This document shows, piece by piece, positions 16,087 to 19,923 of a stretch of DNA of 39,007 bases. A program made the translations under genes and the position numbers. The DNA comes from Nitrososphaeraceae archaeon (GTDB lineage: Archaea; Thermoproteota; Nitrososphaeria; Nitrososphaerales; Nitrososphaeraceae). The stretch is from NCBI GenBank assembly GCA_022545895.1, contig JAKEIK010000040.1, positions 1 through 39,007 on the forward strand, written 5' to 3'. Below the pieces are notes generated by a model. That model was not told the DNA's origin. It worked only from the letters and a program-made list of their open reading frames with translations, and searched no databases. Within the stretch, counting starts at the first letter, position 1; every line of letters begins with the position of its first letter.

Positions 16087-16860
16087 TTAGAAAAGGGTCT
16101 CCAGAAGCTCTTCGTTTCCAAGTATAGCACCCTCCATTGACAGTATCAGACACTTTTCTACAGCCTTCTTTTTGAGTATACGATTTACTAATGGCGAGAT
16201 TTGACCTTGTCTACTAACTTTTGACTGATTCACAATAAATCTATTGTAAGATGGCATTACAATAATATCAATCGACCCCTTCTTGCTAGGAAATATAACA
16301 TCCGTTCTAACTCTAAGAAACACCCACACTTTTTGACCATTCATAACACTATCAGATTTGAAGAATACTGGATGAACATGTCCAAGAATAATCTTTTTGA
16401 CGTTTGAAGTCAGTGATGAAGGCATAGTATGACCGTGAATAAGCAGGGTATCATCGATTGTCATTCCTGTAACCCCTATCGTACTTATTGAGTCAGGTAT
16501 GAGTAACCTGATCTTACTGTCATGATTACCAGGAACAAAATAGACTTTACATAGCTGTGAGAGGGACTGCAAAAATTTAGGAACTACTTTCCAATCTCCT
16601 TTATTGATTCCAGACACATTGTTTTTTATATCACCTAACAGAACAATTGAATTGGCTTTACAAGATATCACAATTTTTTCGAGTTCCTTTTCGGTCTCTT
16701 CCGCAATCTGATACCAATCGATAGATACGTTCTGTGATTGAAACCAATGCGCGAAACCAATGTGCAAGTCTGAAACTACTAGTATCGATTCATTCTGGCC
16801 TTCCAGCTTTGTATGCATTAAAAGTGCGGGATGTCTCGGTACTATGCTAAGCTCAGCCAT
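16087..16860 (-). CDS. Calcineurin-like metallophosphoesterase (ICC-like)
   Basis: All five metallophosphoesterase blocks are present in order: VSDLHIGFAHWF (Asp and His), VLLGDIKNN, FVPGNHDSK, LIHGHTMP and LGHVHPVFF. These bind two metal ions and hydrolyse phosphomono- or diesters. The layout with an early HPALLMH segment resembles the ICC-like family found widely in archaea. Substrate unknown. The length of 257 is about normal. It is convergent with carB, the stops being only 14 bases apart. ATG at 16860 is the start. Confidence 0.85.
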   Translation of the reverse strand: MAELSIVPRHPALLMHTKLEGQNESILVVSDLHIGFAHWFQSQNVSIDWYQIAEETEKELEKIVISCKANSIVLLGDIKNNVSGINKGDWKVVPKFLQSLSQLCKVYFVPGNHDSKIRLLIPDSISTIGVTGMTIDDTLLIHGHTMPSSLTSNVKKIILGHVHPVFFKSDSVMNGQKVWVFLRVRTDVIFPSKKGSIDIIVMPSYNRFIVNQSKVSRQGQISPLVNRILKKKAVEKCLILSMEGAILGNEELLETLF

Positions 16861-17112: not shown

Positions 17113-17646
17113 ATGAAATTTAATTTGATACTGTCTTCGTCTCGGAACAGAGAAGGTGACGCAGTTGACGAATTCATAAAATTAATTGAGGAGAATCTAG
17201 AAGAAAGTCCAATAGTTGAAATAAGCAACATTCAAGGAATAATAATTGCATTTACTGAAACCGATCCTTTAGAGGTCATTGATCTCTTCAAAAAAATGGC
17301 CACTGAAGAACCATGGCACTTCAGGTATATTCTTAGAGTTATTCCAGTACAAATCGTTTGTTCTACTAACCTGACAGAAATTATAGATAGCTCTTGTAAG
17401 TTATTTAGGAAGGTGTCTAGAGTATCATCATTCAAAATTGTGGTTGAAAAGCGACACTGTAACATCAGATCTCGAGAAATAGTTTTGGCCATCGCAAGCA
17501 GAATAACAAACAAAGTGGATTTGTATTATCCTGATTGGATTATACTTGTAGAGATTTTGGGGAAAAGGACAGGTATATCAGTTTTGAGATCTGAACACCT
17601 ATTGAGCATCGTAAAGCAAAAGATGGGTGGACACATAAGTAAATGA
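17113..17646 (+). CDS. THUMP-domain RNA-binding protein (Tan1-like)
   Basis: This 177-residue protein opens with FNLILSSSRNREGDAVDEF, followed by strands ending GIIIAFTE and the THUMP core, roughly residues 75-175 (SFKIVVEKRHCNIRSREIVLAIAS, then VDLYYPDWIILVEILGKRTGISVL). THUMP domains bind tRNA acceptor regions. The arrangement resembles Tan1, the adaptor for tRNA N4-acetylcytidine formation, but no acetyltransferase gene is nearby. It starts with ATG 17113, with TTTTTAAT at 17089-17096 as a TATA-like box. Convergent with the cgi121 operon. Confidence 0.75.
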   Translation: MKFNLILSSSRNREGDAVDEFIKLIEENLEESPIVEISNIQGIIIAFTETDPLEVIDLFKKMATEEPWHFRYILRVIPVQIVCSTNLTEIIDSSCKLFRKVSRVSSFKIVVEKRHCNIRSREIVLAIASRITNKVDLYYPDWIILVEILGKRTGISVLRSEHLLSIVKQKMGGHISK

Positions 17647-17933: not shown

Positions 17934-18533
17934 TTAAAACTTTACCAGAGCTGCTTTTTCTACGAGGTAATTTTCAAAAAATACCCTGTCTATTTTTTTA
18001 TGGGTAATCCCAAATTCTTTACGTAATCTTGCCATTTTGTTCTTTCCTATTCTTAAGACTGAAACATGTATCTCGTTATAGTAACCTTCAATGTATTGTT
18101 TTATCTTCAGGACAGAGTCCAAATTTTCTGACATCAAAATGAAGCATGCTGCACTATCGTTTTTTAATCCTCCAACTTTTATAGCCTTTGAAATTTGACT
18201 AGTACGACACAATCTCATTAGGATATCCGTTTCCATTATTTTTGATAACTTTATTCCTCGATTCCATGATTCAACCGTCAATTGGAGTACCCTTAACAGA
18301 TGATTTACTCCAAATACATAACTGGCATCCATGCCTTGAACTAAGACATCGGGAGAAAACGCTCTGAATTTGGTAATTAATTCGTGTAAATTTTCACTTC
18401 CAAGATGCATTATTTCGATAATTGCAACATAATAAGTGTCTATTCGATATAAAGATCGGTCTTCTGGAGGGATATTATTTTCTAACAAAGTAGGTCCTTT
18501 CTTATTATTCAAATTAATATCTTTTATACTCAA
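17934..18533 (-). CDS. cgi121: KEOPS complex subunit Cgi121
   Basis: Cgi121 is the subunit of KEOPS that recruits tRNA for N6-threonylcarbamoyladenosine (t6A) synthesis. Diagnostic stretches are VLVQGMDASYVFGVNHLLRVLQ and KIMETDILMRLCRTSQISKAI, matching the family's pattern around a helix-rich core with a QI-x-A-I helix. The C-terminal basic segment MARLRKEFGITHKKID is an addition of uncertain role. At 199 residues it is slightly longer than the usual ~160. It is third in a minus-strand row S17e, ubiquitin-like, Cgi121, with gaps of about 15 bases, so it is probably translated from a common message. Confidence 0.82.
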   Translation of the reverse strand: MSIKDINLNNKKGPTLLENNIPPEDRSLYRIDTYYVAIIEIMHLGSENLHELITKFRAFSPDVLVQGMDASYVFGVNHLLRVLQLTVESWNRGIKLSKIMETDILMRLCRTSQISKAIKVGGLKNDSAACFILMSENLDSVLKIKQYIEGYYNEIHVSVLRIGKNKMARLRKEFGITHKKIDRVFFENYLVEKAALVKF

Positions 18534-18547
18534 ATTTAGTCATTTTA

Positions 18548-18802
18548 CTATCCACCATGTACTAAACTAGCAACAGTGACGGTATCACCTGATTTTATTA
18601 CTGATTCTCCCTTTGGAAACAAAGACGATTCGATTCCATTGATAGCTATCAAAAAATTCTTTTCATCAATAAGGTCTGGCTCAATTGCATGGTTGCGTAA
18701 ATAGGACATTATGTATGAAATCGATGCGTTAGGCTCATCAATATAAAGTGTATTCGTATTCACAGTTTTCTGGATTGAACCGAGAAGTTTCACTATTATC
18801 AA
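18548..18802 (-). CDS. MoaD/ThiS-family ubiquitin-like protein
   Basis: This 84-residue beta-grasp protein ends in VHGG, the Gly-Gly tail that an E1-like enzyme adenylates. Sequence features: VKLLGSIQKTV first strand, SISYIMSYLRNH helix, NFLIAINGIESS and the SGDTVTVASLVHGG end. Members either donate sulfur (molybdopterin, thiazole, tRNA thiolation) or are attached to proteins as archaeal small modifiers (SAMPs). The sequence does not decide between these. TTG 18802 is the start. It lies 15 bases after S17e and 14 before cgi121. Confidence 0.8.
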   Translation of the reverse strand: MIIVKLLGSIQKTVNTNTLYIDEPNASISYIMSYLRNHAIEPDLIDEKNFLIAINGIESSLFPKGESVIKSGDTVTVASLVHGG

Positions 18803-18817
18803 TGTAGTTTCAAGTTG

Positions 18818-19057
18818 TCATTCTGCTTCCGAAGATAAGGAGTCTGGTGGCTCTCCTTGTGATTCCAAATTTTCCTCACTTGATTTGGATTGCTTGTTAA
18901 GATGTGAGGCGATATATCCTGCGACCTGATTTCTTAATTCTTTAGATCTTACTATCGCAAGCTCCACAATAGTCTTTTTATTCTGTTCAAAATTGGTTCC
19001 AAACCTATCAGGATATTTATTCATAAGGTCTGTGGCAATCCTTCTCACACGATGCAT
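18818..19057 (-). CDS. rps17e: 30S ribosomal protein S17e
   Basis: S17e is a small-subunit protein shared by archaea and eukaryotes. The core RVRRIATDLMNKYPDRFG, TNFEQNKKTIVELA and SKELRNQVAGYIASHL follows the family pattern exactly. An acidic, Ser-rich tail of about 25 residues is appended. The frame opens at GTG 19075, but the family starts with Met directly before a basic xRVR, which here is ATG 19055-19057; a TATA box about 29 bases upstream agrees. Product 79 residues. First gene of the S17e/ubiquitin-like/Cgi121 row. Confidence 0.9.
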   Translation of the reverse strand: MHRVRRIATDLMNKYPDRFGTNFEQNKKTIVELAIVRSKELRNQVAGYIASHLNKQSKSSEENLESQGEPPDSLSSEAE

Positions 19058-19080
19058 AGATATTAACGAGAACACAAGCT

Positions 19081-19093
19081 TATTTTATACTTA
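19081..19093 (-). promoter_or_regulatory. TATA box of the S17e operon
   Basis: Minus-strand reading gives AAGTATAAAATA, centred about 29 bases before ATG 19057. It implies leaderless or nearly leaderless transcription of rps17e and selects that ATG over the upstream GTG. Confidence 0.6.
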
Positions 19094-19149: not shown

Positions 19150-19923
19150 TCATCCATTGAAGAACATGTGAGAATTTGTTGATACTATGCACATAGCTTC
19201 TTCAAAAGTCATTTTAAGCTCATGGGACATAATATTTAGTATAGTGATGAGCATATTTGTTGGCAATGATGTAACATTTTTGAAGCAGCCAGAATATCTT
19301 ACAGGCCCGTCTGTTTCAATCAATATCTTATTTCTATCAGCTAGACTAAGAAGTTTTTTCTTGTTTCGAGAGTAAGCGATGAGCGGACCGTATGAGACAT
19401 ATAGACCCATATCCATTGATCTTTGTAACTGCTTCTCTGTCCCATCAAACCAGTGGAGACATGCATCGAGGTTATCGTACGACGGAATGAGATTAAGAAT
19501 TTCATCCAATGTTCCTCTAGAGTGTATAGAAACGGGTTTTTCAATTTCTTCCGCTAAGTTCAACATTTTTTGAAAAATATCTACTTGCTTTGAGTAGTTG
19601 TAATCATTGGATGTGTCATACGAGTGATCAAGCCCAATTTCTCCTATTCCATCGATGAAGTTCCGGTTTTGCGCGACGAGGTCTTCAAATTCAGAAAACT
19701 CTTCGGTTTGGGCAAATTCAGGGTGAATCCCTACAAAATTAAATACTACATCTCGATTTGCTTCACTAAACATGTCTATGGCTCTCCTTGAAGTAGATAC
19801 GTCTATGGTCACTGAGCATCCTTTGATACGCAATTCCCTCATTGATGTAAGAATTTGTGTTAAAAAATTCGCATAATATTCATCCACCAGGTGTATATGC
19901 GAATCATAGAACAAAGGATCCAA
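19150..19923 (-). CDS. TatD-family metal-dependent hydrolase (deoxyribonuclease)
   Basis: This is a TIM-barrel metal hydrolase. Metal-binding and family motifs in order: FYDSHIHLVD (His-x-His), FVGIHPEFAQ, IDGIGEIGLDHSYD (Glu), PVSIHSRGTLDEI (His), ACLHWFDGT (His), and ILIETDGPVRYSG (Asp). TatD proteins act as 3'-5' exonucleases in DNA repair or RNA turnover; the substrate here is not shown. The length of 257 is normal. TTG 19923 is the start. The wHTH gene lies 35 bases upstream on the same strand. Confidence 0.85.
   Translation of the reverse strand: MDPLFYDSHIHLVDEYYANFLTQILTSMRELRIKGCSVTIDVSTSRRAIDMFSEANRDVVFNFVGIHPEFAQTEEFSEFEDLVAQNRNFIDGIGEIGLDHSYDTSNDYNYSKQVDIFQKMLNLAEEIEKPVSIHSRGTLDEILNLIPSYDNLDACLHWFDGTEKQLQRSMDMGLYVSYGPLIAYSRNKKKLLSLADRNKILIETDGPVRYSGCFKNVTSLPTNMLITILNIMSHELKMTFEEAMCIVSTNSHMFFNG

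Follow-up and report, generated by a model that had tools for sequence, protein, structure and literature searches.

A conserved S17e-Urm1-Cgi121 operon in Nitrososphaeria and the possible Gly-Gly processing of its fused forms

In the genome of a member of the Nitrososphaeraceae, a small beta-grasp protein ending in Gly-Gly is encoded between ribosomal protein S17e and Cgi121, a subunit of the KEOPS complex, which raises the question of what such a protein does in this company. It could carry sulfur for a cofactor or for tRNA, or be attached to other proteins. The locus lies in a stretch of 39,007 nucleotides, called the window throughout, with the following features in and around the operon:

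19150-19923, minus strand: TatD-family nuclease (PF01026, 156 bits), a conserved upstream neighbour
19083-19089, minus strand: possible archaeal TATA box, TATAAAA, seen in the sequence 32 bases before the S17e ATG
18818-19057, minus strand: rps17e, 30S ribosomal protein S17e, ATG start, 79 amino acids (PF00833 Ribosomal_S17e 48.9 bits, above cut-off; NF002242 72.7 bits, cut-off 72)
18548-18802, minus strand: Urm1-like beta-grasp gene, 84 amino acids ending SLVHGG before the stop (PF09138 Urm1 21.1 bits, cut-off 21.8)
17934-18533, minus strand: Cgi121, KEOPS subunit (PF08617 CGI-121 31.1 bits and NF011465 91 bits, each above cut-off)
17113-17646, plus strand: THUMP-domain (Tan1-like) gene (PF02926 28.8 bits), convergent with the operon

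A preliminary description of this DNA had reported three minus-strand genes in line with gaps near 15 bases, and the measured gaps are indeed 15 bases (S17e to the Urm1-like gene) and 14 bases (Urm1-like gene to Cgi121). The oppositely oriented Tan1-like gene that it placed downstream is confirmed by the PF02926 match and converges on Cgi121 at a distance of 287 bases. For the Urm1-like gene and for Cgi121 the start codon, TTG in a mechanical list of open reading frames, is not certain, and about 47 residues precede the matched domain of Cgi121, which is the only PF08617 match in a Pfam search of the genome. The single TATA box said to precede the operon held up in part: TATAAA does stand at -32 from the S17e ATG and is compatible with the data, but a box at -40 to -24 is found in 8 of 43 upstream regions against a mean of 3.3 and a maximum of 9 in 200 shuffles, which is no significant enrichment across loci. 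Adjoining the THUMP gene is a metallophosphoesterase gene (16087-16860, minus strand; above the cut-off for PF00149, below it for TIGR00024 SbcD_rel_arch at 82 bits), also present in four other loci of the genus (L006, L007, L009 and L010).

By sequence profile the window protein appears nearest to Urm1, which is its sole Pfam match at E ≤0.01 (E 0.0004, 0.7 bits under the cut-off); against the NCBIfam Urm1_like model it scores 17.3 bits where the cut-off is 70. A whole-genome search with PF09138 at E ≤0.001 returned no match even though the protein alone reaches E 0.0004, indicating that the Pfam model is weak for this lineage. Among 18 members of the family, 17 match the Urm1 model and 16 the ThiS model (Pfam, E ≤0.01), so the family sits between Urm1 and ThiS; one fused member scores 22.4 bits for PF09138, over the cut-off. 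When a profile of the 18 relatives is compared with the PDB, the best matches are mostly Urm1 proteins, including Trypanosoma brucei Urm1 (2k9x, E 8e-6), 2pko (ubiquitin-related modifier 1) and a Sulfolobus protein (4wwm, E 9e-5), with Ta0895, of unknown role, ranking between the Urm1 chains. The AlphaFold2 model of the window protein is a confident beta-grasp fold (pLDDT 89.2), for which Foldseek returns MoaD first, followed by Sulfolobus Urm1, yeast Urm1 and SAMP1. A C-terminal HGG is a hallmark of Urm1, and HGG closes the domain in 136 of 138 distinct open reading frames found with the family-wide profile, which takes in a few doubtful relatives, L111 and L116 being without HGG. For Sulfolobus islandicus Urm1, an H81R change is named in the abstract of a paper.

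The genome, which is 93.9% complete, encodes one full-length E1 (PF00899, 5.6e-78; C74:3336-6566, locus L003), which adjoins threonine synthase and has a ThiS-type domain at its N-terminus, as well as an NcsA/TilS-type PP-loop ATPase (PF01171, 3.8e-20, on C32) and two JAMM proteins. No rhodanese domain was detected in a Pfam scan of the E1, and on paper a Urm1-like sulfur pathway would be complete apart from rhodanese. We propose, with moderate confidence, that the window contains the unfused form of an operon co-producing S17e, a Urm1-type carrier or modifier and a KEOPS subunit, that Urm1 freed at its GG serves tRNA thiolation, and that fused forms of the pair found in related archaea are cut by a JAMM protease. 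The one full-length E1, itself fused to another ubiquitin-like (Ubl) domain, would adenylate the Urm1-like protein, which has a free HGG end; the protein would then be charged with sulfur and used together with the NcsA-type ATPase for thiolation of tRNA, on this gene content its likeliest role; attachment to proteins would be a possible second use. Cgi121 would join KEOPS for t6A, and making the proteins together would keep two pathways of anticodon-loop modification supplied in step with the production of ribosomes.

A reading that overlaps with this one takes its lead from Makarova and Koonin's remarks on operon neighbours (PMC2948915, cited here and below from excerpts), and holds that the Urm1-like protein is mainly a protein modifier (urmylation or SAMPylation) regulating the ribosome or KEOPS; those authors proposed SAMPylation of KEOPS or a joint function. 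We regard it as possible but doubtful. The nearest solved relatives include Sulfolobus Urm1 and SAMP1, JAMM genes are present, and excerpts of a study of S. islandicus report 330 urmylated proteins with the ribosome as an enriched pathway (PMC12625751). A modifier role does not, however, exclude sulfur transfer, as eukaryotic Urm1 does both according to the same excerpts, and no conjugate data were found for this lineage.

The other part of the preferred reading, the freeing of Urm1 at its GG, turns on related archaea in which the two genes are joined. Among the loci available, Urm1 and Cgi121 form one open frame in 45 of 47 genomes of family f2 and in 8 of 11 genomes of genus g5, which we take to be Nitrosopumilaceae and Nitrososphaera, respectively. 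HGG lies exactly at the junction in all 53 distinct fusions, and the GG is kept whatever follows, as expected of a GG-processed Ubl precursor. Entropy is zero in the H, G and G columns and 2.3-3.7 bits in each of the following 14, in a set with a mean pairwise identity of 0.45 (minimum 0.22); the residue directly behind GG is S in 26 fusions and A in 13. Unfused copies stop directly after GG in 62 of 85 cases and carry 1-14 extra residues in 22, some of which could merely reflect overlap with the next gene, and the remaining copy (L116, the doubtful relative without HGG noted above) carries 146. In L136 an in-frame stop follows HGGA. Coupled translation is suggested by L054 and L129 (both g5) and L161 (f63), in which the end of the Urm1 gene is shared with the Cgi121 frame and the HGG codons contain a possible start (GTG or ATG); the splits in L054, L128, L129, L137 and L086/L136 could be assembly errors. 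An AlphaFold2 model of one fusion has two ordered domains, the second matching KEOPS Cgi121 structures, and falls below pLDDT 50 only at residues 83-85, the HGG.

In 119 loci placed on a tree, the two genes are separate in 54 and fused in 52, and Cgi121 is missing from the locus in 13; the set includes five loci from outside the class and differs from the 119 class genomes counted for gene order below. The tree, a quick one with many weak forks, long branches and no inferred root, requires five changes between the fused and other states. Its deep branches (f3, f5, f6, f7 and f9) are unfused, and most simply the unfused operon, as in the window, would for that reason probably be ancestral, with at least two origins of the fusion, one at the base of f2 and another in g5. 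By analogy with MoaD-MoaE, the single chain Urm1-HGG|Cgi121 of f2 and g5 would be cut after the GG by a protease, most likely a JAMM metalloprotease, freeing both parts. We put at about even the chance that ammonia-oxidising archaea make Urm1 as a ubiquitin-style precursor with a whole KEOPS subunit as its tail, that a JAMM cut at the GG yields modifier and t6A subunit in equal numbers, and that an older S17e-Urm1-Cgi121 operon gave rise to this arrangement two or more times.

Alternatively, the fusion could be permanent, with the GG as a flexible hinge, Urm1 serving KEOPS as a structural or tRNA-docking module, and the operon reflecting their physical association. The apparent origin of the fusion on at least two occasions would suit such an arrangement, as would the two ordered domains joined by a loose HGG linker in the model. 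Cgi121 was also never found twice in one genome, so it should serve KEOPS whether cut or uncut: the Pfam CGI-121 model has one match in 46 of 55 genomes, two in none and no match in nine, and these nine include G011, G009 and G004 of the window's genus, where tblastn with the window's Cgi121 finds a homologue, for which reason absence by this model was not used as evidence. A hinge, however, would not require all 53 fusions to retain H-G-G ahead of 14 variable columns, nor does it account for the unfused copies that end exactly at GG, and a GG|S junction of the same kind is cleaved in MoaX. On these grounds we consider a permanent fusion unlikely.

On the precursor reading a protease would be at hand, since a search of 108 genomes found JAMM genes (PF14464) in 101 (54 of 55 and 47 of 53); being near-universal in the sample, their presence hardly discriminates. 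The seven genomes lacking JAMM (G182, G174, G194, G389, G613, G411 and G459, from five families) all have an unfused Urm1 with a bare GG end. A fusion (30) or tail (21) is found in 51 of 93 JAMM-bearing genomes as against none of these seven (Fisher p 0.005, not corrected for kinship), eight of the 108 genomes having been dropped with no Urm1 locus available or none under E 1e-11, and every fusion or tail genome in the test has JAMM. At all four g6 loci examined (L017, L018, L019 and L026) a JAMM gene with the metal-binding motif stands head-to-head with the operon. In g5, coordinates read by eye place a JAMM some 3-5 kb upstream of the fusion in three of 11 genomes (G120, G224 and G262), and farther off or on another contig in the other eight. 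Neither in those eight nor in the remaining class genomes outside g6 did inspection by eye reveal a JAMM closer to the operon than about 6 kb, fragmented assemblies hiding some cases.

Further GG and JAMM arrangements were observed. The Ubl domain of the E1 on C74 ends in VAGG shortly ahead of the E1 part; across 30 E1 loci (L003 and L228-L256), 25 of which have a readable pattern, VAGG is kept in 22 and followed by S or A in 20. This Ubl-E1 chain could be a second GG-processed fusion; the fusion itself was published in 2010 (PMC2948915). In two genomes of f33, outside the class (G438 and G487), a Urm1-like gene with a weak match and the ending AYIHGG has a JAMM gene about 2.2-2.3 kb away.

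The preliminary description had proposed testing across Nitrososphaeria how far the gene order is kept. The order is neither unique to this genome nor a matter of chance: all 12 genomes of the genus, the window's own included, keep TatD-S17e-Urm1-Cgi121, and 99 of the 119 class genomes with the locus available, from 10 of 16 class families sampled, keep S17e-Urm1-Cgi121 in adjacent or fused form. These genomes are represented mostly by best-scoring or hand-picked loci and not by a random draw. S17e is next upstream of Urm1 (within 300 bases) in 110 of the 119, and Cgi121 is next to Urm1 (within 700 bases) or fused to it in 107. Of 79 class loci in which Cgi121 adjoins or is fused to Urm1 and the available sequence reaches at least 1.3 kb past the Urm1 frame, 54 have a THUMP gene downstream on the opposite strand. 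Among 15 genomes from outside the class, one of f63 has S17e-Urm1-Cgi121, one of f74 has S17e-Urm1, and three of f32/f37 have Urm1-Cgi121. In the loci examined of genus g2, presumably Nitrosocosmicus, Urm1 follows S17e and Cgi121 does not adjoin it, and five g2 genomes with a Pfam match have Cgi121 elsewhere in the genome; the linkage is therefore not obligatory. In all five g2 genomes for which both genes are listed (G081, G104, G111, G137 and G163), the displaced Cgi121 lies about 12-13 kb from JAMM. Of 400 class genomes, 283 give a family match to a profile built from the genus alone, and a wider profile matched four of nine misses that were re-searched. The other five (G107, G153, G154, G175 and G204) gave no match with either profile, and G153 is a g5 genome 95% complete, suggesting that the Urm1 gene may be dispensable in places.

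The displacement in g2, and the fact that short gaps alone are no proof of functional coupling, agree with a view of the operon as transcriptional convenience with S17e, its three products not cooperating, whereas retention of the order in 10 of 16 families and repeated fusion speak against it. We judge mere convenience quite improbable, and retain joint supply of S17e, Urm1 and Cgi121 as the preferred reading.

A PF02597 search of the genome found three further ThiS-type domains, one of them the N-terminal domain of the E1 on C74, making the window protein a fourth Ubl. The search for MoaD/ThiS copies beside moaE that the preliminary description had suggested yields two dedicated, Pfam-confirmed MoaD genes, on C184 and C207, next to moaA, moaE and moaC (moaA on C184 being cut by the end of the stretch examined); both MoaDs end in PVSGG and score 47-51 bits for Pfam ThiS. 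The gene order in the two clusters (L001 on C184, L002 on C207) is moaA-moaD-moaE-moaC, and moaC is fused to a MoCF_biosynth molybdopterin-binding domain in both. That the window protein is itself a MoaD-type molybdopterin synthase subunit, or ThiS for thiazole synthesis, has the first Foldseek match and the 16 of 18 ThiS matches in its favour and was nevertheless rejected as very improbable, in view of the two dedicated MoaDs with their moa genes, the HGG end of the family as against PVSGG, and a Pfam scan of six window genes that found no moa or thiazole gene near it. The preliminary description had suggested that the modifier may act in tRNA modification rather than in molybdopterin synthesis. 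A role outside molybdenum cofactor synthesis is well supported, the protein standing apart from the moaE-linked MoaDs. Its placement in tRNA modification is favoured by the Urm1 likeness and by the E1 and PP-loop ATPase of the genome and is tempered by the affinities to ThiS and MoaD.

The core association is not new. Excerpts of Makarova and Koonin (2010; PMC2948915) describe a Ubl-Cgi121 fusion shared by all of the Thaumarchaea available at that time, beside an S17 gene, probably in the same transcript, in Nitrosopumilus maritimus and certain marine relatives, and a proposal that tRNA modification is the ancestral role of archaeal Ubls; the preliminary description thus presented a pairing in print since 2010, and it missed both the single polypeptide of related archaea and what the junction implies. 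With the same pair and the same S17(e) neighbour, the published fusion and the window genes most likely belong to one gene family, but the window has two separate genes, with a free GG at the end of the Ubl. In the excerpts of PMC2948915 we found no treatment of the junction, of the tails or of the sequence of events, and we found no paper on processing of Urm1-Cgi121 among those listed from an open-licence collection, in which subscription papers are mostly absent. What seems new is the detail of junction and tails, the probably ancestral unfused operon, the repeated fusion and the precursor pattern.

Sulfolobales Urm1 (arCOG00540; PDB 4wwm) is likewise a Urm1-like beta-grasp protein, and its S17e-URM1 neighbourhood is named in the excerpts of PMC2948915; it differs in having no Cgi121 neighbour or fusion, Cgi121 being missing in Sulfolobales (PMC2948915). 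The closest models for cleavage are MoaX, the MoaD-MoaE fusion of Mycobacterium tuberculosis, whose cleavage between Gly82 and Ser83 is needed for activity (PMC4326299, in excerpt), and the MoaD-MoaE of Deinococcus, cut by the JAMM protein DRJAMM (PMC8832034, in excerpt). In each a sulfur-carrier domain is fused through GG to an enzyme subunit, and MoaX has Ser after the GG, as do many Urm1-Cgi121 fusions; the partner here is instead a KEOPS subunit, and cleavage is a predicted step. Caldiarchaeum SAMP precursors, which are cut by CsJAMM (PMC6043591), are likewise archaeal small modifiers made as precursors and processed by a JAMM, but no KEOPS subunit is mentioned with them in the excerpts available.

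If the proposed reading is true, modification of the anticodon loop (s2U34 and t6A37) and ribosome production are linked in one gene unit, and the precursor pattern offers a testable protease-substrate pair in an abundant archaeal group. Some ammonia-oxidising archaea of this group are in culture. In eukaryotes, the ubiquitin-ribosomal protein fusions and FUBI-S30 are Ubl precursors joined through GG to a translation-related protein and released by cutting. They differ from Urm1-Cgi121 in Ubl family, partner and protease, and in the Urm1-Cgi121 fusions archaea would gain a close parallel to the eukaryotic ubiquitin-ribosomal protein precursors.
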